A stretch of 64,000 nucleotides of DNA from Chrysaora quinquecirrha (taxonomy: Eukaryota; Cnidaria; Scyphozoa; Semaeostomeae; Pelagiidae), in assembly GCA_014526335.1 (NCBI GenBank), contig JACTAT010000009.1:2180446-2244445 (forward strand), in the 5' to 3' direction. Position numbers and translations under genes: made by a program. Below the pieces are notes generated by a model. That model was not told where the DNA came from. It did not search any database and was given only the letters and a program-made list of their open reading frames with translations. The number at the start of each line of letters is the position of its first letter. Position 1 is the stretch's first letter. Below, in pieces: positions 3,772-63,756 of this stretch.

Positions 3772-4947
3772 ACATAACAAAAGGCCTAATACGCCATTAG
3801 ATAACGGCGGATTTTGCATTCTGTTATGTATAGTGTATTACAATACATAACAAAAGGCCTAATACGCCATTAGATAACGGCGGATTTTGCATTCTGTTAT
3901 GTATAGTGTATTACAATACATAACAAAAGGCCTAATACGCCATTAGATAACGGCGGATTTTGCATTCTGTTATGTATAGTGTATTACAATACATAACAAA
4001 AGGCCTAATACGCCATTAGATAACGGCGGATTTTGCATTCTGTTATGTATAGTGTATTACAATGCATAACAAAAGGCCTAATACGCCATTAGATAACGGC
4101 GGATTTTGCATTCTGTTATGTATAGTTATTATAGTACATAACAAAAGGCTAAATACGCCATTAGATAACGGTGAATTTTGCATTCTGTTATGTATAGTGT
4201 ATTACAATACATAACTAAAGGTCTAATACGCCATTAGATAACGGCGGATTTTGCGTTCTGTTATGTATAGTGTATTACAATACCTAACAAAAGGTTAAAA
4301 GATAACGGCGGGTTTTGCATTCTGCTATGTATAGTGTATTACAATACATAACAAAAGGCTAAAAGATAACGGCGGATTTTGCATTCTGTTATGTATAGTT
4401 TATTATAGTACATAACAAAAGGCTAAATACGCCATTAGATAACAGCGGATTTTCCATTCTGTTATGTATAGTTTATTACAATACATAACAAAAGGCTAAA
4501 AGATAACGGCGGATTTTGCATTCTGTTATGTATAGTTTATTATTGTGCATAAAAAAAGGCCTAATATGCCATTAGATAACGGCGGATTTTGTATTCTGTT
4601 ATGTATAGTTATTATAGTACATAACAAAAGGCTAAATACGCCATTAGATAACAGCGGATTTTCCATTCTGTTATGTATAGTTTATTACAGTACATAACAA
4701 AGGCTAAATACGCCATTAGATAACAGCGGATTTTGCATTCTGTTATGTATAGTGTATTACAATGCATAACAAAAGGTTAAAAGATAACGGCGGATTTTGC
4801 ATTCTGTTATGTATAGTGTATTACAATACATAACAAAAGGTTAAATACGCCATTAGGTAACGGCGGATTTTGCATTCTGTTATGTATAGTTTATTATTGT
4901 ACATAACAAAAGGCCTAATATGCCATTAGTTTCCATTCTGTTATGTA
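3772..4947. repeat. Tandem array of a 73-bp palindromic satellite unit
   Basis: About 16 head-to-tail copies are present. The consensus spacing is 73 bp, measured between CAATACATAAC phrases at 3841 and 3914. Shorter variants lack the CTAATACGCCATT part. Each unit is itself an imperfect palindrome: it begins TACATAACA and ends TGTTATGTA, with CGCC and GGCG flanking ATTAGATAA in the middle. The first five units are nearly identical and later ones diverge, which suggests recent expansion at the left edge. The structure reads as a miniature hairpin element that became a satellite. No spacers of unique sequence separate the units. Confidence 0.9.
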
Positions 4948-8280: not shown

Positions 8281-9720
8281 TTTTCCAAGTTTTAATAAAG
8301 GGACAATGTTTGTTAAGGGTCAAGGCTTTGCTCCCGTCCTTTTAAACGGACAATATGCGTTGAGGGGTAAGGGGTATTCTTTCCATCTTTTAATAAACGG
8401 GCAATATTTGTTGGGGGTAAAGGCTTTGTTTCCATCCTTTAATAAACGGGTAATATCCGTTGAGGGGTAACGGGTGTCTTATCTATCGTTTAATAAACGG
8501 GCAATGTTTGTTGGGGGTAAAGGCTTTGTTTCCATCCTTTAATAAACGGGCAATATTCGATGAGGGGTAATGGGTGTCTTATCTATCTTTTAATAACCGG
8601 GGAATGTTTATTGGGGGTAAATGCTTTGTTTCCGTCCTTTAATAAACGGGTAATATCCGTTGAGGGGTAACGGGTGTCTTATCTATCTTTTAATAAACGG
8701 GCAATGTTTGTTGGGGGTAAAGGCTTTGTTTCCATCCTTTAATAAACGGGCAATATTCGATGAGGGGTAATGGGTGTCTTATCTATCTTTTAATAACTGG
8801 GGAATGTTTATTGGGGGTAAATGCTTTGTTTTCGTCCTTTAATAAACCGGCAATATTCGTTCAGGGGTAAAGGGTGTCTTATCTATCTTTTAATAAACGG
8901 GCAATGTTTGTTGGGGGTAAAGGCTTTGTCTCCATCCTTTTTATAAACGGACAATATCCGTTGAGGGGTAACGGATGTCTTATCTATCTTTTAATAACCG
9001 GGGAATGTTTGTTTGGGGTAAAGGCTTTGCTTCCACCCGTTAATGAATGGGCGATATTTGTTCAGGCGTAACGGGTGTCTTATCTATCTTTTAATAAACG
9101 GGCAATGTTTGTTAAGGGTAAAGGCTTTGTTTCCATCCTTTAATAAACGGACAATACTCGTTGAGGGGTAACGGATGTCTTATCTATCTTTTAATAACCG
9201 GGGAATGTTTGTTTGGGGTAAAGGCTTTGCTTCCACCCGTTAATGAATGGGCGATATTTGTTCAGGGGTAACGGGTGTCTTATCTATCTTTTAATAAACG
9301 GGCAATGTTTGTTAAGGGTAAAGGCTTTGTTTCCATCCTTTAATAAACGGACAATACTCGTTGAGGGGTAACGGATGTCTTATCTATCTTTTAATAACCG
9401 GGGAATGTTTGTTTGGGGTAAAGGCTTTGTTTCCGTCCTTTAATAAACGGGCAATATTAGTTGAGGGGTAACGGATGTCTTATCTATCTTTTAATAACCG
9501 GGGAATGTTTGTTTGGGGTAAAGGCCTTGTTTCTACCCTTTAATAAAGGGGCGATATTCGTTGAGTTGAGGGGTGACATAACGGGTAGCCTTTCCATCTT
9601 TTTATAAATGGGGAATGTTTGTTGGAAGTAAAGGCTTGCAGTGTTAATGGTTTTCCCTGTCATTTAATAAATGGGGAATGTTTGTTGTTGGGCAGCAGGT
9701 TTTCCCATCTTTTAATACTT
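8281..9720. repeat. About 50-bp minisatellite with dimer and tetramer higher-order structure
   Basis: Units begin AATAAACGGG and end in TTTCCATCCTTT or TCTTATCTATCTTTT alternately, so the true period is a dimer of about 101 bp. Variant pairs (ACGGGCAATG against CCGGGGAATG) repeat at about 200 bp, for example 8491 and 8692. About 28 monomers are present. The small plus-strand ORFs here are not genes. Confidence 0.85.
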
Positions 9721-16075: not shown

Positions 16076-17119
16076 TTGTCTTCTGCAATGGTGTTCTACA
16101 AAAAAATTTCACCTGAAACTAGAGCTATGATCAAGTGTTTAAGAAAGCATGGATCGAAATCATATAGAGAAATAGCATCAGAGCTTGGACTACCTGTGTC
16201 CTCGGTCTACCGTGTCGCTACGAGCAGGCAAGAAGTAACAATACCTAAAAATAACGGCAAGAGGGGCAGGAAAAGAATATTAAGCGCTAGAGATACCAGC
16301 CATATAATTCGGGAATTTTTGAAAATGAGAGCCGAGAATCCCAACGTATCTGTTAAAGACATAATGCGTTCGTTGAAAATGCCAAATGTCAGTTATAGAA
16401 CGGTTGTGCGGGTACTCAATGACGCTGGCTATAAACGTTTACAGCCGAGACAGAAAGGTATTCTATCAGAAAAAGACAAATCTCTGCGGAGGAAATATTC
16501 TATCCAAAAGCTGAAGAATTACAACCAACAGTTCTGGAACGAAGAAATTCTGTTGTATTTAGATGCGGTATCTTTTGTACACAAAAACAACCCACATATA
16601 GAAAGCTTAAGGCCGAAAGCGAGAATTCTCAGAAAGCCAAACGAAGAGCTAATTGTCACAGCCAAGGGCTCCAAAGATTTGGCAGGGGGACGACTTCACC
16701 TCCTTGTTGTCATTTCGTATGGAAGGGGTTGTTCTTATAGAGGAATATGAGAAGATGACGGGACAGTATTTTGCTGGTTTCATTCGCAATACCCTTGGAC
16801 CAGCTTTACATGAATTAAGTGACAATAACTACGCAACTAAAGGCAGACTGTTTGTAATGGACTATGATCCTTCGCAGACAAGCAAACAAAGCTGCGATGG
16901 AAGCCCTTAGTAATAAACAGGCAACAATCATCAAAATACCATCGAGCCCGCTCTCCAGATTTACATCCTATCGAAAATGTCTTCAATAATGTCAAAAGAG
17001 AGCTTGACAGGCAAGCCCTTGAACAAAAAATATTTCGAGAGGATTTCCATACTCCTATTTTAATGAATTATTATAATAGAAACACTGAGGGGTGCACAGG
17101 GAGATGTTTTCGAAATTAA
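16076..17119 (+). pseudogene. Tc1/mariner-family transposase, frameshifted
   Basis: Residues 1-130 hold two helix-turn-helix units, the first reading GSKSYREIASELGLPVSSVY, as in the paired-like DNA-binding part of Tc1 transposases. The catalytic domain follows: the first Asp in LLYLDAVSFVHKNNP (about 16550-16595), the second in FVMDYDPSQTSK (about 16852-16887, family norm Q.DNDP.H.S), and the third acidic residue in RSPDLHPIENVFNNVKREL (about 16945-17001). All three acidic positions survive. The frame changes near 16690-16740, again near 16890 and again before 16945, so no full protein is made. The last frame stops at 17117-17119. Confidence 0.85.
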
Positions 17120-29397: not shown

Positions 29398-30126
29398 ATG
29401 CAAGAAGGAAATCCAGAAGGAGCTGCTGCAGCTCCAGAAGAAGCTCATGAGGACATTAGATCACGCTTTGGTTTATTTCGAAGGCCTGAGAAGTTTAAAA
29501 TCGGAGAAGATTTTGATTTATTTGTACGGAAAATTAATTTGTATTTTGAAGCAGTCGAAGTTGCAGATGATAAAATGAGACGGCTTGCTTTATTGTTTAA
29601 TTTGAACGAAGATGCCTTTAGACTGGCAGAAGGAGTACCATTCGCTATGGAAGGGGAAAGGAAATATGAAATATGGGTGAATGAGCTAAAGACTCTATTC
29701 GAAAGGAATCAAACCTTGACGGAGAAACGATATAATTTTCATAAGAGAAATCAGGCTGTAGGAGAAACAGTTGATTCTTTCGCAATTGGATTACGAGAGT
29801 ATGGAGCAAACGAATACAGCAATAGATTAGTGGATCAATTTATTTTAGGACTCCTGGATAAGCAAACGCAGACTCGGCTGCTACAGGAACCTCCACAGAC
29901 ACTGCACGAAGCTTTAGTTGTTGCCAGAAGGTTTGAAGCTGCGCGAAGTACTATGCAGACTTTGAGACAAGACACTGATGCCAGTAGACCCAAGGCAAGG
30001 ACTGTCCGTACTGAAAAAGTTTGTTTCAACTGCAATCAGCCAGGGCACATAGCTAAATACTGCAGAAAAGGCCAGTTTAATCCCTACAATCCTATGGTAA
30101 GGGCACAAAAACCAGGAAAAATCTGA
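29398..30126 (+). CDS. gag: Gag (capsid-nucleocapsid) of the Ty3/gypsy element
   Basis: A 242-codon ORF from ATG 29398. The N-terminal part is acidic and Ala/Glu-rich. A capsid-like region follows (FKIGEDFDLFVRKINLYFEA at about residues 34-53, later FILGLLDKQTQTRLL), as in Ty3/gypsy gag proteins (retrotransposon gag domain). Near residue 210 there is a CCHC zinc knuckle, CFNCNQPGHIAKYC, for RNA binding. Two more knuckle-like motifs (NCQQP..HFSSYC and CYRCGEKGHIARNC) lie just past the stop in the next frame. This suggests that gag once ran further and that the stop at 30124-30126 is a lesion or a programmed shift site. Confidence 0.85.
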   Translation: MQEGNPEGAAAAPEEAHEDIRSRFGLFRRPEKFKIGEDFDLFVRKINLYFEAVEVADDKMRRLALLFNLNEDAFRLAEGVPFAMEGERKYEIWVNELKTLFERNQTLTEKRYNFHKRNQAVGETVDSFAIGLREYGANEYSNRLVDQFILGLLDKQTQTRLLQEPPQTLHEALVVARRFEAARSTMQTLRQDTDASRPKARTVRTEKVCFNCNQPGHIAKYCRKGQFNPYNPMVRAQKPGKI

Positions 30127-30131
30127 TTTAA

Positions 30132-31085
30132 TTGTCAGCAGCCCATTTTTCATCTTATTGCCCATTGAAAAAGAGTAGCATAGACAAGAATACTTTTATG
30201 CAGGGACAGTCAGAACAAAAGGATGTAGTTTGTTATCGTTGTGGAGAAAAAGGACACATAGCGAGAAATTGTGAAGCAATCTTGCAAGGGAAGAGTGAAG
30301 CAGGTGGAACTCCTTCAGCAAGTGGTGTGAAATCCAATGTTGGTTCTAAAACAAAGGTCAGGTTATCTAGTGCTTTTCCAGTGGATAATAAAAAGACACC
30401 TGTAGTTGAAGCTAAGATCAATGGGAATGAAATTATTTGTGTATTGGATACAGGAGCTTCAATCTCTTTGTTGTCAAAAGAGAAATGGGAATCTGATTTT
30501 TCTGACAAACAGCTTATAGCTGCTGAAATTGTAGCCGAGACTGCAATAAACACACCAATGGGAGTTCTTGGAAAAATTACCCTTGGAGTCCAAGTGGCGG
30601 ATAAAGAAAAGGAGGATGAGTTTTATGTTGTTGAGAGTTTGGGTTCAGAGGTAATTTTGGGCCTTGACTGGATGTTGGAAATGAAGGCGTCTGTTGATTG
30701 TAATGAACAGTTGTTGAAGTTCACCGATGGTACAACTGAGCCTATATTATTACAAGTCATGGGGTTGCAAAATAGGATGATAGTTGTTTTGCAAGAAGAT
30801 TTTGAAGTACCAGGCAGACATGAGATTGTTAGGAGAGCCTGTCTTAAAAATCCTTGTGTTTCAGAGTGCATTTTAGAGCCAAATTTTGACTTGATGGATA
30901 AAGGTGTCATGGTAGCTAGGGCCTTGGTTAAGCCTATTCAGCAGACAGTTCCAGTTCAGATTATAAACCCAGGACAGCTCCCAATAAAGCTTCACAAAGG
31001 TCAAACTGTAGGACAATTGCAAGGAATAGAAATAGAGAGAGAAGACCCCGTGTTAAGTTATGATGACGGTTCTGAAAAAGTTTGA
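30132..31085 (+). CDS. pol: Zinc-knuckle and aspartic protease segment of gag-pol
   Basis: A 317-codon open frame (no ATG at its start, so it was entered by frameshift or from gag). It holds the last zinc knuckle CYRCGEKGHIARNC (about residues 34-47) and a retropepsin active site VLDTGASISLLS at about 104-115. VILGLDWML, near residues 179-187, matches the conserved ILG.DWL of the family. It overlaps the reverse-transcriptase frame by a few bases near 31075. The protease residues DTG are intact. Confidence 0.85.
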   Translation: MSAAHFSSYCPLKKSSIDKNTFMQGQSEQKDVVCYRCGEKGHIARNCEAILQGKSEAGGTPSASGVKSNVGSKTKVRLSSAFPVDNKKTPVVEAKINGNEIICVLDTGASISLLSKEKWESDFSDKQLIAAEIVAETAINTPMGVLGKITLGVQVADKEKEDEFYVVESLGSEVILGLDWMLEMKASVDCNEQLLKFTDGTTEPILLQVMGLQNRMIVVLQEDFEVPGRHEIVRRACLKNPCVSECILEPNFDLMDKGVMVARALVKPIQQTVPVQIINPGQLPIKLHKGQTVGQLQGIEIEREDPVLSYDDGSEKV

Positions 31086-33284
31086 TTTTGATTTAAGCCA
31101 CTTGCCATCAGATCAGCAGGCAAAACTGAAGGAACTTTTCAAACAATATGAAAACATCTTTGCAAGGAATATCAGTGAACTGGGAACAACACCAAAAGCT
31201 GAGCATGTAATTGATACTGGAGGGAGCCATCCGATTAAGCAGTTGCCACGTCGTTTACCCAATGTGTTGAGAAAGGAAGTTGACAAACAAGTAAGAGAAT
31301 GCTCGATAGTGGAGTCATTAGGCCTAGTAAATCTCCTTGGGCTAGTCCGATTGTGTTGGTGAAGAAGAAAGACGGGACATGGAGATTTTGTGTCGATTTC
31401 AGAAAGGTGAATGATGTTACTGTGAAGGATTCATTTCCTTTACCGCAGATTAATGATTTGCTTGACACTTTGGCTGGCCAGAAATATTTCACGACACTTG
31501 ACTTGGCGAGTGGGTACTGGCAGGTGCCCATGGAAAAATCCAGTATTGAAAAGACCGCCTTTGTGATTCCAGGAGGCGGGCAGTTTGAATTTATCAAAAT
31601 GGCATTTGGTCTCACTAACGCTGTGCCCACCTTTCAGCGTCTGATGTCAAATGTGTTGGCAGGCTTATTGAATAACAAGTGTCTTGTTTATATTGATGAT
31701 GTGCTAGTTGTTGGGAAAGATTTTGAAGAACATTTTGAGAATTTAAAGGAGGTGTTTCGTGCAATTTCAAGTGCAGGGTTGAGGTTAAAGCCTTCAAAAT
31801 GTTCTTTTGCCAAGAAAAGTGTTAAGTTTCTTGGATTTGAAATTTCAGATCAAGGCTTGTTACCTGATGAAGAAAAGATTCGTGCAATTCGTGATTATGT
31901 ACCGCCAACAGATGAAACAAGTTTGAGAAGATTTCTGGGTTTAGCATCTTATTACAGAAGATTTGTGTCTGGCTTTAGTGAGATTGCTACCCCATTGCAT
32001 AGGTTGTTACAGAAGGGATCAAAGTTTTGTTGGACAGATGAATGTGATGCAGCCTTCAAGAGTTTGAAAACACAGCTAGTATCAAGTCCAATTTTAGTGT
32101 TTCCATGCCTGGACAGAGAATTTATTTTGTACACTGATGCAAGCGACATGGGAGTAGGTGCCATATTGGCCCAGAAGGACGATAATGGTGAAGAATTTGT
32201 GGTTTCTTTTGCATCGAAGGCGTTTAATGGTGCTGAGAAGAGATGGACAACGATGGAAAAGGAAGCTTTTGCTGTGGTATGGGGCTTACAGTACTTTCAT
32301 GCTTATGTTTATGGTCAGAAAGTTGTTGTCTTTACGGATCATAAAGCCCTACAGTGGTTAAGAAATTTGAAATCAGTGAATGGAAAGCTAGCTAGATGGT
32401 TGTTGAAATTGAAGCAATATGATTATGTTGTTGCGCACAGGCCAGGCTCTCAGATGGCTCATGTAGATGCTTTGTCACGTGCACCAGTCGATTTCGTACG
32501 AGTTGAGGTCTTGAATGAGACTGAAATTGCTACAATGCAGATTGAAGATCCTGAGATTAGTGTTGCTGTTCAATGGATTCGAGATGATGCTCAGGATGCT
32601 TCATTGCCGGAGGATGCTTCAGAGAGCTTAAGAACATTGTATAATATACGAAACTCCTTGTTTATTGTCAATGAAGTGCTTTATCGAGAATGGCGTGCGA
32701 AAGATGGAATTAGGAGGTTACAGGTCGTGTTACCAAGGAGACTCAGGGAGGAGATATTACAACGAGCTCATGTAAACGTTGGTCACATGAGTACAGGAAA
32801 AACGTTTGGGCTAATTCAATCGAACTATTATTTGCCAGGTTTTTATGCAGATGTTGATAAATACTGCTAGTCGTGTGATACGTGCCAGAGAGGGAAGATA
32901 GTTCCCCGACCGCGTTGGCCGATGCAGCCATTGCCAGTGATCCCAATACCATTCTACATGACAGGAGTAGACATTGTGGGCCCTTTGAAACAAACGAGAA
33001 AAGGAAACAAGTATATTCTTGTTGCTATCGACTATTACACGAAATTTACCGAAGCAATTGCGATGAAAAATGAAGAAGCAGAAACGGTTGCAAGAGCACT
33101 AGAAGAAATATTCTCAAGACACGGTTTACCTGGAGTTCTACTTACAGATCAAGGCAGCAATTTTCAATCGAATTTAGTAAAAACAATGTGCCAAATGTTT
33201 AACATCGACCAGAGAAGAACAACTGCCTATCATCCCATCATCCTCAGACAAATGGACTATGTGAGAGGTTTAATTAAACGTTGA
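31060..33284 (+). pseudogene. pol: Reverse transcriptase, RNase H and integrase N-half
   Basis: The RT linker begins in the frame at 31060 and shifts by one base near 31300. In the 523-codon frame from 31299 come ASPIVLVKKKDGTWRFCVD, the catalytic CLVYIDDVLVV (residues 129-139), LRRFLGLASYYRRF, and RNase H with ILYTDASDMGVGAIL (276-290) and VVFTDHKALQWL. The integrase H2C2 zinc site starts at H..H (REEILQRAHVNVGH) but is cut by a TAG at 32868-32870 before SCDTCQRGK. The same frame then continues through the integrase core (GVDIVGPL, LTDQGSNF) to 33284, where one inserted base upstream (about 33240) breaks it. Catalytic residues are intact; the chain is not. Confidence 0.9.
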
Positions 33285-34003
33285 AATCTTTGTTAAGAGC
33301 AAGAGTAAATAAAGACCAAGACAATCGGGATGAAGAACTGCCGCATGTGTTATTAGCATATCGAATTTCCAAGCAGGAAACAACAGGTTTCTCACCATTT
33401 CAGTTGCTTTATGGGCGTCAACCGAGGCTTTCGTTTAGCGTTTGCCCGTCCGATGGACTTCCAACACCGATACAAGGTCCAGGAAGGTACTTAGAAGATC
33501 TGAGAGATAAACATGAAGAGCTGCGTACTGCTGTATCTGAGGGACTAGAGAAAGCACAAAAGAGACAAAAACGCGAGTATGATTTGAGATACAAAGTTGC
33601 TCGAAGTATTGAATTCCGACTAGCTGATCTAGTGTTGCTGAAAGATAACCGAGCGAGAGGTTTGTCGCAAAAGTACATTGGACCGTTTCAGATTGTGAAG
33701 GTGATGAATGGAACCTATGAGATTCAATCATTGCGTGATAACAAATGTAAAATGGTGAATCATAACGCTCTGAAACATTATAATGTGGAATTACAGCAAG
33801 AGGACATTAACGAAGCTGAACCTGCTCTAGAACCTGAATCCGAAGATGATTCCGAGTTTGAAGATCTCTTAATTGAACCTGTTGTACGAAGAGAGCAACC
33901 AATTCGTTTAGATGAAGATCCCGAGCGAGTAGTTAGACCATACAACCTTCGGAGGAACAGAAGAGAACCAGAAAGGTATGGTGTACCTGTGTACGACTAT
34001 TGA
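33281..34003 (+). pseudogene. pol: Integrase C-terminal part with GPY/F module
   Basis: A 240-codon frame begins after the family's ERFN stretch, which survives in a third frame at about 33266-33277 followed by a TAA. It contains ELPHVLLAYR and TGFSPFQLLYGR (end of the core), then the GPY/F module YIGPFQIVKVMNGTYEIQSL. It ends with an acidic tail and a basic PYNLRRNRREPERYG. No chromodomain is visible. It stops at 34001-34003. Confidence 0.85.
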
Positions 34004-39487: not shown

Positions 39488-39492
39488 ATTTT

Positions 39493-39538
39493 AGTCTAGT
39501 CATTATAGGTAGTTCACCTCGGACAAATTGCAACAGAA
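39493..39538. repeat. Left two-block terminal inverted repeat
   Basis: Outer block 39493-39502 and inner block 39516-39538 are separated by 13 bp. At the right end the same two blocks are separated by 22 bp. Confidence 0.9.
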
Positions 39539-39668
39539 GCGTTTTTTTGGTCAAAGTACTAAGGAAGGTCCCAGAAACATCATATAAAAAGTCCCCCACG
39601 ATGCGCGTCTTTAAACTTTGAAAATTGGCGTAAACAAAAACAGTATTCTGGTGACAAAAACTGAGCCT

Positions 39669-39677
39669 CTGCGGAGG
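39669..39677 (+). promoter_or_regulatory. Subterminal CTGCGGAGG motif (left)
   Basis: CTGCGGAGG followed by .GCAAA. The inverse with the same flank occurs at 44447-44455, and a third copy at 44284-44292. This placement suggests binding sites for the element's protein. Confidence 0.5.
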
Positions 39678-39776
39678 AGCAAATTAACTCAAGAAACCTC
39701 GTTTTCTAAATTGTCGCCTAGCAACTACATTGTCCTGATGGCCTTGGCTCATTTTGCCTAGGCCAAAGACCTTAAC

Positions 39777-40680
39777 ATGGAAAAATGTGTAATTTGCAAA
39801 GATTTGATAACTGATGAAACTGCTGCAGTTACACTAAGAGAAAAGGGCTGTATAGGTATTTTAAAAGCAAGTAAGGAAAGAGGTGAATGTTTTGATGTAC
39901 AACCTGGCCAACATGCTCACGTTGAATGTCGTCGCATTTATTGTCACCCAAAAGAAATTCAGAAAGCCGCCAAAAGAAATGACTTTTTAAACGGCGCTGA
40001 TGATTGTAAGCCAAAGCTAAGATCTTCGGAGTCAAAGTTTAACTTTAGAGAGCATTGTTTATTTTGTGGGGAAACCTGCCAGCCTTGGTCAAAAATGCAA
40101 CAAGAGAGGTTTTGATACCTATCCTGTGAGGACTAAGGATTTTGACGCCAGTATTAAATTTGTGTGTAAAAAAAAGAGATGATCAGTGGTCGGAGGAGGT
40201 CATGGCAAGAATCATGTCTGCACCTGCTGATCTACATGCTTCTGATGCAATCTACCATCAAGTGTGCAGTGTTAACTTCAGGACTGGAAGAAACAGTCCA
40301 AACATTGACCAAACTGAAGGGAAAAAGGTTGGAAGGCCTGAATCTGATGTACAAAGTGAGGCATTTTGAAAGTAGTAGAGCATTTAACAAATAACGATGA
40401 TGAACAAATCACAGTTTATGATTTGATCGATAAGATGGAGAATTTTCTTGAAGGTTCAGGACATAGTGCATACACATATAAGTGGATGAAAAGCAAGCTA
40501 GAGAAACATTTTGGCGACAAAATAACAATTACGGAGATTAATGGTAAAACAAATGTTGTCACTTTTAAAAGAACTGCCGCAATAATATTACACGAATACC
40601 ACATGCAGTCTACGCAAGATCCGGAAACAGAGAAAATATTATTATTTCTACAGCTGCAGAGCTTATTAAGAGCGACATAA
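39777..40680 (+). pseudogene. N-terminal zinc-binding part of the transposon protein
   Basis: It starts at ATG 39777, 239 bp inside the inner TIR block. The first 113 codons hold MEKCVICKDLITDE, later HVECRRIYCHP and HCLFCGETCQP. This is a Cys/His pattern of the kind that binds one or two zinc ions and could contact DNA. After a one-base shift near 40110, GFDTYPVRTKDF continues. After an A8 run (40168-40175), RDDQWSEEVMARI and HQVCSVNFRTGR follow. After T4 (40364-40367), a helical part follows with LIDKMENFLEGSGHSAYTYK. Each break costs or adds one base and the reading resumes, so this was one chain. It joins the next part near 40640. Confidence 0.65.
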
Positions 40681-41963
40681 AATCAATATTACCAGACAAT
40701 CAATATTATCCTGTTGACGATTTATGTTCATTAACTGCTATGTTGGATTACCTGCCAGACAGTTTAAAATCATTCTTAGGAATTTTGCTATGTGCAAAGA
40801 ATGCCCAAGTAAAATCAGCATCATTGGGACAAGCCCTTATGCAAGCTGTAAGACCACGTATTCTGACAGCTCCACTGCAAATTGGCTTAGGAGTGCAGCT
40901 TCATCACCATTTTGGTTCGAGATTTTTGATAGATACCTTACATAGTCTAGGCTTTTCAAGTTCTTATGCTGAGGTGCAAAGATTTGAGCGGAGTGCAGCA
41001 GTTTCAAATGGAGTAGACCTACCACTAGGGGTGGAAGGAGGCATGATACAACTTGTTGCAGACAATGTTGACCATAACTTAGTAACACTTGACGGTAAAA
41101 ATACTTTTCATGGAATGGGAATAATTGCCACCATAACACCAGAAGTAATATGTAAGAAGTATGTTCCCAAAAAGAATGTTACTGCTGCAGAAATTGCTGC
41201 TGTTGGTAAGATAGATATAAATTTTTACAAGAATAATGGGAAGAAGAATAGTTTAAAGTATGAACTGATAAAAGATTTTATTGTCGAAGATGCCACATCA
41301 CACATCGATCTCTTGTGGAAAATTACGTGGCCTTTGAAGTCCCCTCGACCTTTATGGTCGGGAATGATGCAGATGCTTCATGTTGGAAATCATCCCGGAA
41401 AATCTTCAGTAATTTTTCTTCCAATGATAGATATGGACTTCTCAGACCTTTCATGTGTCTATTCCACATTGAAGTTTGCTTGTAAACTTGGAAATGAACA
41501 TGGCTTTGTGCCCGTAATTACATTTGACCAGCCATTATGGTGGAAAGCTACATTAATTAAATTGGAAAAAATTGATGATGGCGACTTAAAAGAAGTCATT
41601 TTGAGATTGGGTGGGCTGCACGTTATTATGAGCTTTCTGGGAAGCATCGGGCATATCATGTCCGATTCAGGATTGTACGAAGTACTAGAGCAAGTTTATG
41701 CTAGTAACGTTGTAGTTCACATGCTCTCAGGAAAAGCAATTGCAAGAGCGATACGTGGACATTTCCTTGTTGAAACGGCCCTGTTTGGGTTAATATGTGA
41801 TGAAGTATTTCATGTGCCTTTGCCTGTACCTGGAGACACTGATGTTGAAAGTGGGTGCACTAAAGGAGAAGAGTACAATGATCGCGAAATGATAGCCGGA
41901 GATAATCACCAGCTAAGCGAGATCGTTAGTTCAGAAAATGAAGGCAGTGCAGTTGAAAAATAG
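40640..41963 (+). pseudogene. Central conserved domain of the transposon protein (possible RNase H-like core)
   Basis: The open frame runs from before 40740 to a TAG at 41961-41963, just after an A5 run (41956-41960) where the frame slips. Counting from the ATG at 40740, strongly patterned motifs are LVADNVDHNLVTLDG (residues 105-119), FHGMGIIATITPE, VPVITFDQPLWWKA (257-270), LRLGGLHVIMSFLGSIGHIM (289-308) and GHFLVETALFG (340-350). Asp108, Asp263 and Glu345 could be a DDE-like set, but this is a guess from spacing and hydrophobic context. Most of the domain is predicted globular. It is fused, after the slip, to the PIN-like part. Confidence 0.6.
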
Positions 41964-41971
41964 ACAGCGAT

Positions 41972-44250
41972 TTGTTGAAAGCAGGAGACATATTTGATAA
42001 GCTGTTCACATCTGATATTGGAATCCAAGATATTTCCATATGTGAGGACTTAGAGAAAGTGTCGAATAAATTGGAGATTTTCAAAGAAAGGCAGGAAGGC
42101 AGAACTGCGAAGCTTTGGTTCATATACTTGCAAATGCTGGACATCCTACGTCGATTCATCAAAGCAGAAAGGACTGGAAATTGGCAGCTCCACCTCAGTT
42201 CAGTTTCAGAAATGTTGCCTTTTTTTGCTGCTTCAGGTCATAACCATTACACTAAGTCTGTGATGATATATTTGAAGATGATGCAATCACTTTCCAAGGA
42301 TTCGCCTGGTGTTCATCAGCAGTTTTGCAGAGGTCTTCACGTTGTTAGAAGAAGTGAGCGATATTGGGCTGGCCTCTCAACAGATCTAATAATTGAGCAA
42401 GTTCTCATGCGCAGTGTTAAAACAACAGGTGGTCTGACTCGCGGTAGAGGTATGACAGAGAATCAGCGTCTTGTGTGGCTCCTGTCTATGCCTGCATGCG
42501 CAGAAGTCAATAACTCCATGCAAGAACTGACTGAAACACGCTATGCAACAAGTATGCAACACAAAGATCTATCAAAAACAAGGCTCACTAGAGATGAAAC
42601 GGATTCAAGAAATATTCTAAACTTCTTGGTGGACAGAAATCCATTTTCAAATGACACTAGTCTTCATAATATCGCGACCGGGATTATAGCCGATGGAAAA
42701 GTGAATGTTGATGAAGCAGAGTCGGTAGGCAACGCCATTCTAAAATCTATGTCAGGAAAGCAAATTGACGAATACGTTCACAAGAGGAAAGAACAGGTTG
42801 TTACAATGGGTAAAAATACGCTTAAATGCGACAAAGAAGCGGTCCAAATTGACCCTCAATTGCTATTTCAAAGATTGGTGACAGTTGCAAGAAGTGAAGT
42901 GGATGACCTAGAGCCCCTCATGAACTATGAGCTTTGCAGTTATCCACAAGCACTTTTTGAGGCACCAAATGTTCTTCGAAAAGCTAATAAGCCAGCTTTG
43001 ACAGAAGTAATAATGAAAATGGTAACAGAAGAGGGTAGTTGTTGCCCTGATAGACCAAAGTATGTTTTAGATGGAGGTGCATTAGTGCAAAGGGTTCCGT
43101 GGCAGAGAGGTGCTTCTTTTGGAGATATTTGCAAGAATTATGTCCACTTTGTTGTCCAAAGGTATGCTAATGCAACTGTTGTTTTTGATGGCTATGCAAA
43201 TGGACCATCTACGAAAGATGTGACACACAATAGAAGAACACAAGGAAAAATCGGCCCATTTGTGAATTTTACAGCAAAGATGCCTCTTCGCAGTAAGAAA
43301 GAGGAATTCCTCAACAACAAATGCAACAAGCAAAACTTCATCAACATGCTAAGTGATGTTCTTAAAGAAAATGGCGTAATGACCATCCATGCTGACGGAG
43401 ATGCTGACCTACGCATTGTTATGACTGCAGTAAATGCAGCTGAATGCCAAGAAACTGTCGTCATTGGTGAAGACACAGATTTATTAATGCTGTTACTTCA
43501 TCACGCAAATACTGAAACCTATCCTGTGTTCCTTAAATCTGAGCCAAAGCAAAATTCTACAAGTAAATCTAACGTATTCGACATTCATAAAATCAAAACG
43601 GTACTTGGAGACAGAATGTGTAGATTAATTTTGCCGATACATGCTTCCCTCGGTTGTGATACGACGTCGAGGATATTTGGAATTGGCAAAGGAGTCGCTT
43701 TCAAAAAGGCTCTTAAAGATACAGGATTTGGCGAAGCTCTATCTGTTTTCAATGATGAAAGAGCGAGTTCAGACGACATAATTTTAGCTGGAGAGACTTT
43801 GGTAGTGCAATTGTTTGGAGGAAAACCGCAAACTGACCTCAATGGTCTTCGCTACAAAATTTTTTGCCAGAAAGTAGCAAGGTGTAATGCATTTGTGGAA
43901 TCAAAGAGCCTCCCGCCTACAAAAGGTGCAATGACGTATCACAGCTTTAGAGTATACTATCAAGTTCAGGAATGGAAAGGAAACGAAGATCTTAATCCTA
44001 CAGACTGGGGTTGGAAGAAAGATGGAGACTGTCTCTTGCCAAACACAACAGATTTGCCGCATGCACCAAAAGATTTATTGAAGTAATACGTTGCAATTGC
44101 CGAAAAGATTGCAACACTCTAAGATGCACATGCAAGAAAAATGGGCTGGAATGCTCAACTGCATGTGGACACTGCCATGGAACAAACTGCATGAACTCTG
44201 TTAATACACTGATACACGATGAGGCATTTGAAGACGAAGAGCCAGAATAG
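41972..44250 (+). pseudogene. C-terminal part: helical region, PIN/FEN-like nuclease, CXC domain
   Basis: The 704-codon frame (TTG at its open edge) begins with a helical region including LWFIYLQMLDILRRFIKAER. From about residue 385 a PIN/FEN-like fold is visible: ATVVFDGYANGP (Asp406), IHADGDADLRIV (472-483), TVVIGEDTDLLMLLLHH (495-511) and HASLGCDTTSRIFGIGKG (557-574). The last resembles the helix-hairpin after the acidic cluster in XPG/FEN nucleases. After a one-base slip near 44085, IRCNCRKDCNTLRCTCKKNG and ECSTACGHCHGTNC form a tesmin/TSO1-like CXC zinc domain. A short acidic tail ends at 44248-44250. All four acidic clusters are intact. Confidence 0.75.
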
Positions 44251-44283
44251 GGAGCATTTCAAAACCAAATCGAATGAACGGCG

Positions 44284-44455
44284 CCTCCGCAGGGTCTGAT
44301 TTAGATATTGACAAGGCTTTTCGTATTAATTTTGTTGAAATAACTGTTTTATTGACTTTTGTTGACTTTTCATGACAATTCTTCACCAGGATATGTTATT
44401 TGGTTGATAATTAATGATAATTTAGCAAGATTTTTGTTGGTTTGCGCCTCCGCAG
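44284..44455 (-). promoter_or_regulatory. Subterminal CCTCCGCAG motifs (right)
   Basis: Copies at 44284-44292 and 44447-44455, each preceded by GCG, are inverse to the left motif at 39669-39677. Confidence 0.5.
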
Positions 44456-44576
44456 GGGAATTACAATCGTCCCGTAAACAAATGACGCATTTTCTCGTTT
44501 TCTTTAAGGGAGATTTTGGGGGACTTTTGATATGTTGTTCAGCATGCTTTTCTGACTTGAAAAACACTTGAATTGT

Positions 44577-44631
44577 TTCTGTTGCAATTTGTCCGAGGTT
44601 TGGGCTTTTTTTTCCGTAATTTGACTAGACT
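44577..44631. repeat. Right two-block terminal inverted repeat
   Basis: Inner block 44577-44599 and outer block 44622-44631 are exact inverses of the left end. Confidence 0.9.
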
Positions 44632-44636
44632 ATTTT

Positions 44637-49900: not shown

Positions 49901-52507
49901 ATGGATGGAACAACATTCAGCGGATCCGCTCCTATTCCAACAACAAATGTTTCCTTCCCAACTGAGAAGATCAATGAAGTAGAAAATTGTTCATTAAATC
50001 TGCTAAATTTGCGTGGAAGGAAACTCCTTGCTATAGCTGAAAATGTCCTTTCGAAAGAACTTTGTTCAAAAATAATTTCATTGGTTGAAGAAGCACATCC
50101 ATTGTCAGTAATTGACAAATCCACAGCACATTTGAAGTCCAAATTTCAATATTGCATAGAGGACAGTGAATTTTCAATGAAAATCTGGGAAAGATTGAAG
50201 CCACTTGTTGAAAATCTGCTTCAAACTACAAAAGTAACTACACAACCACTAGGATTCGATGTCAGAAGGGGTGAATGGACTTTTCATGGCCTAAGTGAAA
50301 TTTTTACAATAAGCAAGCTGATGCCGATTGAAAGTAAAACATTCGCTGTGCAACGAGATGCTCAATATTGCCCAAACAATGATAAAAGATCGCTTTTATC
50401 TGTAGTTATTTATTTGAATGATGATTTTGAAGGTTTTGGCCATAATTTCTACTTTCAAAAGCATGCTGATGATGGATCTATTGGGAAAGCAATTTCAAGT
50501 GGCATAACATTGAAAGAAGAGGTTGATATTGCTGGAGGGCTTGGGAATGGATACGATGTTTTCAATGTTGTCTCTTCGGCTGGAAATGCCGTTTTATACA
50601 GTCACGACATTTTGTATCATTCAACTAAATTTCAAAATAATCCAAAATGGATTCTGAAAACGAATTTGATAGTTTCTCGTAGAATTGATGTATATGGTGG
50701 CGGTTTGGTCGATGGAGAAAGAGATGATTTTGCTAAATGCATTGAATACTTCAGAATGGGTCTGTTATTTGAAGCTAAGGGACTTGAAGAACAAGCTGCT
50801 GACTGTTACGAAAAGGCATTGTCTCTGAGATATTCGTATCCAAGGAATCTTCTAGAAAAAGAAGCTGTTGATGAATATGCGCATGGCATGTTTGCCACCA
50901 GCTGCTTCCCACACATCATCTGGTATTCCATTTTCGATTTCCTAAGCGGCAAAGATATTGAAAATGTAGTGAAAGCCTTCAATGATTTGTTTAGTTTGCA
51001 ACGTTCTTGGGAATTGCAGCGCTTTCGCAAGACTAATCAAACAGGTAAACTTCAGTTGCCATTTATTCCAGCTGTTGAAACAGAGTCAGGTATCATCACT
51101 CGTTTTAAATTTTCAGATGCCTTTTATTTTCATGAAAACATTGAGGCCTGTATTCGTGTTGCTGCCATGTATTCTTCATGCTTGCTTGGGCACAAAAATG
51201 CGAAGGAAATCGAATTTGTACGATTTAACCCAGAGACAAATCAGGTGTACGGTTTAGCACTAGAGTCATTGTTAAGAGATACATTTTTAGATCGTTCCTT
51301 TTACGGGTCAATTTTTGCTGTAAACAAGAACGACTCGGAAGAAGGAAAAAGCTTTTCAGAGAAACTTCATGCCTCCGTTGACCGCTCATACATGTTATTG
51401 CGACACAACAGCCAATTTACTGGTATTTCACTAAGCGATAGAATGACTGTTAAAATAAACTTGCCTCAAGTCACAGATGATGAGATTGCAACAGCTATTA
51501 AAGAAAGGGAGCGTGAGCAATGGATGCTGAAAGATAATAATATATATAAAATGACGCCCGAAAAAAAAGGTAAAGATCGTACTTCTTACCGTAAAGAGTC
51601 AATTTTGTATCAGTTGAAATGGAATCTTACCAACAAACAAGTGGTAAGATATCCTGTCGTGATTGACCACGAGGGTTGTATTTCAAGAAAAATGTGGAGT
51701 TTCCCTGTAATGATTAAAGATTTCCTGAGGTATCACAAATGGGAATCATTATGTTTTGCATATGAGGGATACAATTTAGAATGGCTGCAAAGTCATTTAT
51801 TATGGGAGAACAAGATCATCTTGTACCTTAGTTTCTGTTACTGGTATGATTGTGATGATTTTGTGAATGTGAAAGAATTGGGTGATTATTCAAGTGCAAA
51901 GGAGCTTTATACCAAATGTTTAATTGATGTCTGCGACCAAAAAGCTGGTATGTCTACTGCTGTAGTCTCTATCAGTAGCAGACCCTTGACAGTTGTTGAA
52001 GGCGTGATTCATTTTGGTAGTCTTCCATTTGAACACAGATCGGAACCCTTCAGCAATAAGGAAATTATCTCTTCAATCAAATCCGAGTGCTACAATCATC
52101 TTGTTTTTGACTTCAATAGTCATTTCATGCAAGTCAAAAGAATGGAAACAACTAAGGATGATCCAAAGTTCACTACAAGAGAACACGACTGTATATTTTA
52201 CAACTCAATATTCGAGTCTTTTCGAAAAGCTGAACTAATTGGATTATCTAACGTTTTTGATTATGTGGTTGAAATGAACCCATATAACGCAACGAGCCAC
52301 AAACAACGCTGGTCAGGCAGACCCTCAGTGTCTGTTGAATTTGATGACCCTTACGAGAGTGGCACCGTTCTTGATTTTGAACTTCAAGGTTGTTTTAGCT
52401 TGCAAGATTTTTCAACTATAAACCATATACATGTTATCGGAGGCACCGACACTGCAACACAGGAAGTACGTCTTTGGGCTGTCTACGGTGGTATCGTAGC
52501 GGTCTGA
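49901..52507 (+). CDS. Large protein with degenerate 2OG-Fe(II) oxygenase fold, TPR-like and F-box-like segments
   Basis: An intronless 868-codon ORF from ATG 49901. Residues about 140-261 match the prolyl-4-hydroxylase-like 2-oxoglutarate oxygenase fold: FAVQRDAQY (148-156), RSLLSVVIYLNDDFEGFGHN (163-182), GNAVLYSHDILYHSTKF (228-244) and PKWILKTNLIVSRR. Family members bind iron by H.D...H. Here Asp153 and His240 are present, but the first His is Gln151, so hydroxylase activity is doubtful. Residues about 283-312 (YFRMGLLFEAKGLEEQAADC, then YEKALSL) fit a TPR repeat. CFPHIIWYSIFDFLSGKDIE (about 337-356) resembles an F-box. The remaining 500 residues are unrecognised. There is no signal peptide or membrane segment, so a cytosolic or nuclear site is likely. 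It may be a host gene, a retrocopy or a transposon passenger. Confidence 0.8.
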   Translation: MDGTTFSGSAPIPTTNVSFPTEKINEVENCSLNLLNLRGRKLLAIAENVLSKELCSKIISLVEEAHPLSVIDKSTAHLKSKFQYCIEDSEFSMKIWERLKPLVENLLQTTKVTTQPLGFDVRRGEWTFHGLSEIFTISKLMPIESKTFAVQRDAQYCPNNDKRSLLSVVIYLNDDFEGFGHNFYFQKHADDGSIGKAISSGITLKEEVDIAGGLGNGYDVFNVVSSAGNAVLYSHDILYHSTKFQNNPKWILKTNLIVSRRIDVYGGGLVDGERDDFAKCIEYFRMGLLFEAKGLEEQAADCYEKALSLRYSYPRNLLEKEAVDEYAHGMFATSCFPHIIWYSIFDFLSGKDIENVVKAFNDLFSLQRSWELQRFRKTNQTGKLQLPFIPAVETESGIITRFKFSDAFYFHENIEACIRVAAMYSSCLLGHKNAKEIEFVRFNPETNQVYGLALESLLRDTFLDRSFYGSIFAVNKNDSEEGKSFSEKLHASVDRSYMLLRHNSQFTGISLSDRMTVKINLPQVTDDEIATAIKEREREQWMLKDNNIYKMTPEKKGKDRTSYRKESILYQLKWNLTNKQVVRYPVVIDHEGCISRKMWSFPVMIKDFLRYHKWESLCFAYEGYNLEWLQSHLLWENKIILYLSFCYWYDCDDFVNVKELGDYSSAKELYTKCLIDVCDQKAGMSTAVVSISSRPLTVVEGVIHFGSLPFEHRSEPFSNKEIISSIKSECYNHLVFDFNSHFMQVKRMETTKDDPKFTTREHDCIFYNSIFESFRKAELIGLSNVFDYVVEMNPYNATSHKQRWSGRPSVSVEFDDPYESGTVLDFELQGCFSLQDFSTINHIHVIGGTDTATQEVRLWAVYGGIVAV

Positions 52508-61851: not shown

Positions 61852-63756
61852 GATGTTTACAGGAAAATTCAGTCAACGGGCTTGAATCGCATTGTGTTAA
61901 TGCTTTTACCCCTTTCAATTGAAATAAAATGCCATTACCTGATTTCAAATGCTTATTCAGAAATGCGTTTCATTCAAAGCACAACAAAAGCCCTTTTCAA
62001 AAAATTTGTGAAGAGTGCTTTGAAAGCAAACAAAACCAAATGCTATCCTGAAGTATAAGCTGGCTGGATAGCAGTATCTGACTATGCAGTATGAAACAGG
62101 ACTATCAAAATACTAAAAGACAAACAGGACTACTAAACCACCAAAAGACAAACAGTATCCTGCAGTAAACCCGAGTTCCTGACACGCTACCGAATCTCCA
62201 TGATCGGACGGAGAATGCGTTCAATCTTTTTATTGCTACGCTTTTTATAAAGGATTTTTCACAGGGAAGGAAACAAGGACTAACCAACAAGGCTTAGAAA
62301 CACGCTGAGGAACAGAACTAAGAAAGAGGGCTAAATGCCGTGAATAATTTCAGGAACGAGGAACAGGACTAAGGAATAGGACTGAAGATCATTAATTATT
62401 TCAGCACTGAGAAACAGGAATTAGGAACAGGACTAAAGACAATGAGTAATCTCAGGACTGAGGAACAGGACTAACGAATGAGACTGAAGAAAATGAGGAA
62501 TTTCTGGACTAATGAATGGGACTGAAGACCATGAGTAATTAAAGGGCTGAGGAACAGGACTAAGGAATGGGACTGGAGACTATTAATTATTTCAGGACTG
62601 AGAAACAGCACTAAGGAATGGGACTGAAGACCATGAGTAATTTCAGGACTGAGGAACAGGACTAGGGAATAGGACAGAAGACCATGAGTGATTTCAGGAC
62701 TAAGGAAAAGGCCTTAAGAATGCGACCTAAGACCATGAGTAAATTCGGTACTGAGGAACAGGAATAAGAAACAGGACTGAAGACCATGAGTAATTTCAGG
62801 ACTGAGGAACAGGACTAAGGAATGGGACTGAAGACCATGAGTAACGTCAGGATTGAGGAACAGGACTAAGGAATGGGGCTGAAGACAGTGAGTAATTTCA
62901 CGACTGAGGAAGAGGACTAAGGAATGGGACTCAAGACCATGAGTAAATTCAGGACTGAGGGAAAGGAATAAGGAACGGGGCTGAAGACCATGAATAATTT
63001 CAGGACTAAAGAATTTGAACAATAACAAAGTCTACAAACTAGACTAAGGAACTGGAGTGAAGACCCTGAATAATTTCAGGACTAAGGAATAGGATAAACG
63101 AACGGGACTGAAGACAATGAATAATTTCAGGACTAAGGAACAGGATAAACGAACGGGACTGAAGAACATGAATAATTTTAGGACTAAGGAAAAGGCTAAA
63201 GGAACAGGACTGAAGACTATCGATAATTTCAGGAATAATGAACAAGACAAACAAATGGGACGGGACCCCATGAATAATTTCAGGACTAAGGAACATGAAC
63301 AATGACAAGTATGAGGAACAGGACCAAGGAATGGGATAGAACATCTGAACAATATCAAGACTGTGGAACAGGACCAAAGAATGGGATGGGAGACCATCAA
63401 TTCTTTCAGAACTATTTAAGAAAAAGAACATAGACAAAGAGAACTGCTGTAAACTAACTAAATTGAAACTTAGGAACATCATTGTGGACTAAGGACCTTG
63501 GACTAAAACAGAGGAACAGAACTGTGATTGGCGCTAGGAAAAGGGACCCTGAACTAGGAGAAAGGAAAATACTCAAGATTAGAAACTAGGAGCTAAGTTG
63601 AAAAGCAGAGTTCGTTAAGGCAGAGGTTCTAAGGCAGAGGTCCTTGAGGCAGAGGTCCTTAGGGCAGAGGTCCTTGAGGCAGACGTCTTTGAGGCAGAGG
63701 TCCTTGAGGCGGAGGTTCTACGAGGCGGTGGTCAGAGATGGGCATGGGCTAGTAAC
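61852..63756. repeat. Segmental duplication, copy B, with larger 51-bp array
   Basis: Partner of 60218-61473 in direct orientation. Its 51-bp array (about 62330-63420) has roughly twenty units, more than copy A. Because 51 is divisible by three, the minus strand stays open for 104-147 codons (SPEIIHGLQSRS-type repeats); this is read-through, not a gene. The tail has about eight AGGCAGAGGTCCTTG units. Confidence 0.85.

Follow-up and report, generated by a model that had tools for sequence, protein, structure and literature searches.

A young DNA transposon family of probable AcademX affinity, with an EXO1/FEN1-like nuclease, in the genome of Chrysaora quinquecirrha

Introduction

What kind of mobile element would encode, in a single protein, a zinc-binding N-terminus, an aspartate-containing core, a flap-endonuclease-like domain and a cysteine-rich CXC tail? 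The question is raised by a locus in the scyphozoan Chrysaora quinquecirrha, within a stretch of 64,000 nucleotides (assembly GCA_014526335.1, contig JACTAT010000009.1, positions 2,180,446 to 2,244,445) that we call the window. A preliminary description, made from the letters alone, had seen here a complete DNA transposon of an apparently unnamed type. Using the genome (328 Mb, 740 contigs) as search space for copies and patterns, we find an element of 5141 bp (window 39492-44632) and assign it, with a probability of roughly 0.8, to AcademX, a lineage of the Academ DNA-transposon superfamily, in which it would form a young family. The basis of the assignment is the architecture of the protein and the length of the target site duplication (TSD), not an alignment of the core.

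Ends and copies of the element

The element is bounded by nested inverted repeats, the outermost of which is an 11-bp terminal inverted repeat (TIR):

39489..39491: left 3-bp target site duplication, TTT
39492..39502, + strand: left TIR TAGTCTAGTCA, 11 bp, placed by the ends of other copies and by the boundary rule from the empty site of copy C348
39516..39538, + strand: left inner (subterminal) inverted block ACCTCGGACAAATTGCAACAGAA with core AAATTGCAACAGA, exact to the right end (23/23)
39576..39598, + strand: third inverted block, complementary to 44517-44539 at 21/23 positions (91%)
44517..44539, - strand: partner of the third inverted block
44577..44599, - strand: right inner (subterminal) inverted block
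44622..44632, - strand: right TIR TGACTAGACTA, 11 bp
44633..44635: right 3-bp target site duplication, TTT

The exact 10-bp outer blocks of the preliminary description (from 39493, and 44622-44631) are indeed there, though one base short of the TIR, and its 23-bp inner blocks hold without a mismatch. The missing base is supplied by other copies. A T precedes the 10-mer AGTCTAGTCA in all seven same-family left ends (a count that omits an eighth match, 77% identical), and an A follows TGACTAGACT in all five same-family right ends. The TIR is therefore the 11-mer, which leaves TTT, and not ATTTT, as the duplication around the window copy. The letters ATTTT do stand on both sides, as had been reported, but they are not a 5-bp TSD, since the T and the A belong to the TIR.

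The search for further copies with the same ends, proposed beforehand, was successful. Both ends are present in C348, C271 and C378b, whose aligned pieces are 98.9-99.8% identical to the window copy; C335 lacks its left end and C378a stops internally, so these are truncated copies. Further left ends lie at C290:6665677 and C224:199468, with the right end absent where expected. Over ~5 kb, five copies show 1-8 substitutions and 3-9 indel columns relative to the per-column majority, the indels being one 6-base deletion and otherwise single columns, mostly in one-base runs. Judged from this small number of substitutions, the family is young and has recently multiplied.

Target duplication and empty site

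Both TIRs could be read in nine copies from several families (the window copy, C348, C271, C378b, L032, L038, L019, C257 and C390). Six of them are flanked by a 3-bp TSD (TTT, TAG, CTA, TAT, CAA and TCT). At least six 3-bp matches among nine copies would be expected by chance with a probability of ~3e-9, and slid controls gave 0-2 of nine. With the 11-bp TIR, no duplication of 4-7 bp occurs in any of the nine, and where lengths of 1-10 were checked, in eight two-ended copies, none exceeds 3. A 5-bp duplication, whose absence from other copies had been named in advance as a refutation, is found in 0 of 9. A tenth element, the more distant L049, is flanked by GTA/GTA and brings the 3-bp duplication to 7/10 overall.

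This count leaves aside C335 and C378a as well as the two single left ends mentioned above (C290:6665677, C224:199468). Also outside it are the diverged C467:1842535, which is without a partner end; L020 and L034, with a single end each; the C290 family, in which a left TIR was not found; C376, whose boundary is unclear; and C208, C467:5450123 and C702, which were not fetched.

The most direct view of an insertion comes from C348, which sits within repeated sequence whose uninterrupted paralogues preserve the empty site, where TAG stands once. When the flanks of C348 are joined by one TAG, 240 of 240 bases are matched at six other places with 91-98% identity (34 matches in all), and the copy's own flanks align over 1-120 and 118-240, with 3 bases in common. 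The junction TTAGATGGAC with its single TAG was seen by eye in all six fetched paralogues (the printed identity counts for L074, L077 and L078 are shifted out of register), and the paralogue L073 is identical to the joined flanks over 80/80 bases. A search for empty sites had been suggested in the preliminary description. Comparing the filled site, GTTAG-TAGTCTAGTCA...TGACTAGACTA-TAGATGG, with the empty paralogue, GTTAGATGG, defines an inserted unit that starts with TAG, stops with CTA and is accompanied by a 3-bp duplication. The loci L073-L078, among the 34 matching places, represent the repeat family that took this insertion.

A nuclease within a transposase-sized protein

The interior of the element is occupied by one coding region with the following parts:

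39780..44250, + strand: transposase coding region of ~1,490 codons, with several frame breaks in the window copy
39780..40300, + strand: N-terminal Cys/His region, putatively zinc- and DNA-binding
41061..41063, + strand: Asp of ADNVDHN, candidate catalytic D1 (D in 9/9 lineages covering the position)
41526..41528, + strand: Asp of TFDQPLW, candidate catalytic D2 (D in 11/11 lineages covering the position)
42395..42397, + strand: Glu of STDLIIEQ, candidate catalytic residue (by eye, E in each of the 9 rows with coverage here, out of 11 in alignment A1)
43070..43780, + strand: XPG/FEN1/EXO1-type (PIN-like) nuclease with the motifs VLDGG, VVFDGY, DGDAD, GEDTD and GCDTTSRIFGIGKG
44089..44193, + strand: cysteine-rich CXC zinc domain, read in a different frame in the window copy

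That a single gene fills the interior, as previously described, holds for the coding region as a whole but not for its frame, which shifts several times in the window copy and leaves the CXC tail out of frame with the nuclease open reading frame (ORF). Because of the broken frame, the window copy is probably non-autonomous as assembled; part of the breaks may be assembly errors. C271 has an open piece of 733 aa from the N-terminus through the core, and C348 one of 1172 aa that covers core and nuclease and ends just before the CXC domain; taken together, the two pieces point to a full length of ~1,490 codons. Overall, the layout described earlier is supported: a DNA transposon whose protein joins a zinc-binding N-terminus, a core with Asp residues, a nuclease of PIN/FEN type and a CXC tail.

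In the alignment of the protein with in-genome relatives (A1), D367, D406, K415, R422, D477, D501, D503 and G561-C562-D563 are invariant in the C-terminal half. A profile built from 11 in-genome relatives found four matches at E <=10 among PDB sequences, all of them Exonuclease 1, with alignments that span the nuclease motifs. The likeness to the EXO1/FEN1/XPG nucleases lies in the acidic motifs and in the stretch around GCD...G.GK, which aligns with Exonuclease 1; the difference is that the nuclease of the window belongs to a transposase-sized protein.

For the core, we propose a D-D-E catalytic triad on the grounds of residue conservation; the His of a GGFH motif is likewise invariant (11/11 lineages). 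No credible match to the core was found in Pfam, NCBIfam or PDB sequences. By single sequence, the PDB gave none for the 704-aa ORF and two weak matches for the core (E 1 and 1.6), and a scan of seven proteins against NCBIfam gave one weak match (E 0.076). The N-terminal Cys/His region has no credible match in Pfam, and the few peptide patterns scanned found no relatives in viral and genome contig collections. Two in-genome relatives match DUF6589 (PF20231) above cut-off (L050, 4.5e-12; L049, 1.9e-7); L051 is just below it (26.8 bits vs 27), and the window protein matches weakly, below the cut-off, in the same part of the profile (0.079). Pfam lists DUF6589 as a family of unknown function.

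A CXC tail is present in six of the nine rows that reach the C-terminus (the window, in the other frame, L018, L016, L019, L027 and L047) and not in L049-L051. In Pfam only that of L047 is above cut-off (TCR, 3.3e-5); the window tail stays below it with both preSET_CXC (0.031) and TCR (2.7).

Ends shared across related families

The ends reach beyond the family itself. The exact sequence TAGTCYAGTCA stands at one or both ends of C257, C390, L020, L032 and L034, relatives with a protein identity of 36-54%, and each end of L019 and L038 carries the TIR with a single mismatch. In the C257 family (50% protein identity), outer and inner inverted blocks match at 12/12 (AGTCCAGTCAAT) and 25/25 (AACCTGGAATAAATTGCAACAGAAA) positions. 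All seven copies of the C290 family terminate in ...GGACTA, six of them with the exact 11-mer, at the point where the similarity between copies stops.

The core of the inner block, AAATTGCAACAGA, recurs in other families as well. By this recurrence it is a conserved subterminal block, and likely a transposase-binding site. Across the genome, 18 places match the combined end pattern TAGTCYAGTCAN{5,35}AAATTGCAACAGA, and none matches its reversed control. As a tag for the family, AGTCTAGTCA by itself was discarded, as it is not enriched (478 vs 895 for the control).

Several relatives deserve a description of their own. L049 427-4548 (G000:C516) is a complete element of 4122 bp with 312-bp inverted repeats (99.4%) that start with TAG. 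Its protein is 23% identical to that of the window and has the nuclease motifs and the DUF6589 match but no CXC domain; by this comparison L049 represents another lineage of such elements, deeply separated from the first. L018/L046 (G000:C376) belong to a family of 44% identity, whose inverted repeats measure 537 bp (93.7%) and have CAA on both outer sides. There TAGGCTAGTCA lies farther out on the left side only, so that the boundary is uncertain; the protein is open except for one stop. L050 and L051 (G000:C224, C121), of the lineage lacking CXC, have long open frames of 855 and 887 aa. No TIRs were recognised in the DNA fetched around them, and they may be tamed genes or else transposons whose ends are of another kind.

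Probable assignment to AcademX and alternatives

In the accessible part of Kojima and Bao (PMC10045372), AcademX, a lineage credited there to Kojima 2020, has TSDs of 3-4 bp and AcademH TSDs of 9-10 bp, a difference tied to the nuclease or helicase that each encodes. We assign the element to AcademX because its nuclease and its 3-bp TSD fit this description, as far as the available text gives it, and the distant relative L049 fits it too. With 5141 bp, the element is also near the mean of 5565 bp given for curated bivalve Academ elements in the accessible part of PMC10294476. The earlier verdict of an unnamed type, reached with a list of superfamilies from which Academ was absent, accordingly finds no support in the present data: the protein appears to fall within a named superfamily, likewise a refutation stated in advance, as judged from its architecture and TSD and not from a direct alignment. 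On this sequence-based reading we would regard the family as a new one of a known kind, not as a new type.

Several observations weigh against the assignment. The comparison with AcademX was made by published description, on the nuclease and the length of the TSD. No protein scanned matches a transposase family in Pfam, DUF6589 being the only match, and AlphaFold on the window sequence alone gave unusable models (pLDDT 36.5 and 34.9) in which the RNase-H fold was not obtained. The AcademX nuclease is XPG-like; here the Exonuclease 1 match is of moderate strength (best E 0.0011), and single-protein Pfam scans gave no match to XPG. Among the same-family copies seen, none has a fully open frame. 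Three of the ten two-ended copies lack the TSD (C378b and C257 have none, and L019 agrees at only 2/3 positions), and the C290 family yielded no left TIR. In L030, L033, L035, L036, L047, L048 and L050 the 11-mer was not found at <=1 mismatch in the fetched DNA, which may stop short of the ends, and the single such match in L051 lies inside the coding region, with none at the ends of its fetched DNA.

Could the element instead stand for an unnamed DNA-transposon superfamily that came to resemble AcademX by acquiring a FEN-type nuclease independently and through the length of its TSD? The core without credible database matches would suit this idea, which we nevertheless find improbable: both AcademX features given in the available part of PMC10045372 are present, in L049 as well, and the length agrees with curated Academ elements in that of PMC10294476. 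Membership in another named superfamily (Kolobok, KDZ/Zisupton, Transib or AcademH) is very improbable. Several of these do have large D-D-E-like cores with zinc modules, and CxC-type domains are carried by KDZ proteins, but the TSD of 3 bp disagrees with the 4, 5 and 8 bp of Kolobok, Transib and Zisupton. Against Transib, with its 5-bp TSD, stand 0/9 copies at that length with the 11-bp TIR and the 3-bp empty site. The other Academ lineage, AcademH, encodes a helicase and has a 9-10-bp TSD in the portion of PMC10045372 available, whereas the TSD here is 3 bp and none of the proteins scanned with Pfam matched a helicase. For the group of Dada, hAT, Kolobok, MuDR and P, that paper gives a C/DxxH signature between D2 and E; at the invariant His after D2, the only His looked at, the residue at -3 is G, not C or D, in 11/11 lineages.

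That the copies are a family of host genes whose inverted flanks arose by chance has next to no probability. The protein family is large and diverse, with 74 genome matches to the 704-aa ORF (best candidates only scored), as a gene family would be. Set against this are almost identical copies at unrelated sites, which share their exact ends and show 3-bp duplications, the 18 places against none in the control for the two-block end pattern, and the empty site; the shared ends together with the empty site refute the idea.

Within the AcademX assignment, the CXC tail and the subterminal AAATTGCAACAGA block stand out. Neither is mentioned in the available portion of the PMC10045372 description, and they are possibly unreported, on a literature search that did not cover the subterminal block. 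In the open-licence literature, no paper was found that joins a transposase, a CXC domain and a DNA transposon, which does not show that the combination is unpublished; none was found for DUF6589, nor, among the papers listed, for tesmin together with Academ. Uncharacterised CXC-tailed 'GEDTDLL / GCDTTS' proteins occur in invertebrates. A bolder proposal, which we think unlikely and offer tentatively, would make the CXC-tailed elements with TAGTCYAGTCA ends and AAATTGCAACAGA block a distinct lineage, perhaps a superfamily of their own, with the FEN-type nuclease as a working part of transposition and many of these invertebrate proteins as copies or tamed descendants.

Possible mechanism and use

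In a possible mechanism, the Cys/His module, the CXC module or both would bind the subterminal AAATTGCAACAGA blocks, and the D-D-E core would cut at the TAG...CTA ends. The cut ends could then be joined to target strands 3 bp apart, with gap repair producing the 3-bp duplication, and the FEN/EXO1-like nuclease might trim flaps or ends during excision or repair.

A young multi-copy family with readable ends, a TSD, an empty site and a known protein layout is a good subject for studying the role of the AcademX nuclease. Its end pattern TAGTCYAGTCAN{5,35}AAATTGCAACAGA detects the family without using the protein. The family further links DUF6589 of Pfam, and proteins of unknown function that carry a CXC tail, with mobile elements, a connection by which gene annotation would be corrected.

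Other features of the window

The window contains traces of other mobile elements. Open frames of a Gypsy-type long terminal repeat (LTR) retrotransposon lie at 29398-34003, where the frame at 31299 has reverse transcriptase, RNase H and integrase zinc domains in Pfam, and a fragment at 16076-16750 has the helix-turn-helix of a Tc1/Tc3-type transposase (PF01498, 4.1e-9). An 868-aa open frame at 49901-52507 is perhaps a host gene; its N-terminal part resembles 2-oxoglutarate/iron oxygenases by eye, and in Pfam it gave TPR matches below cut-off and nothing else. Tandem arrays are found at 3772-4929 (period ~73/137 bp), 8290-9565 (~100 bp) and 62305-63007 (~51/102 bp).

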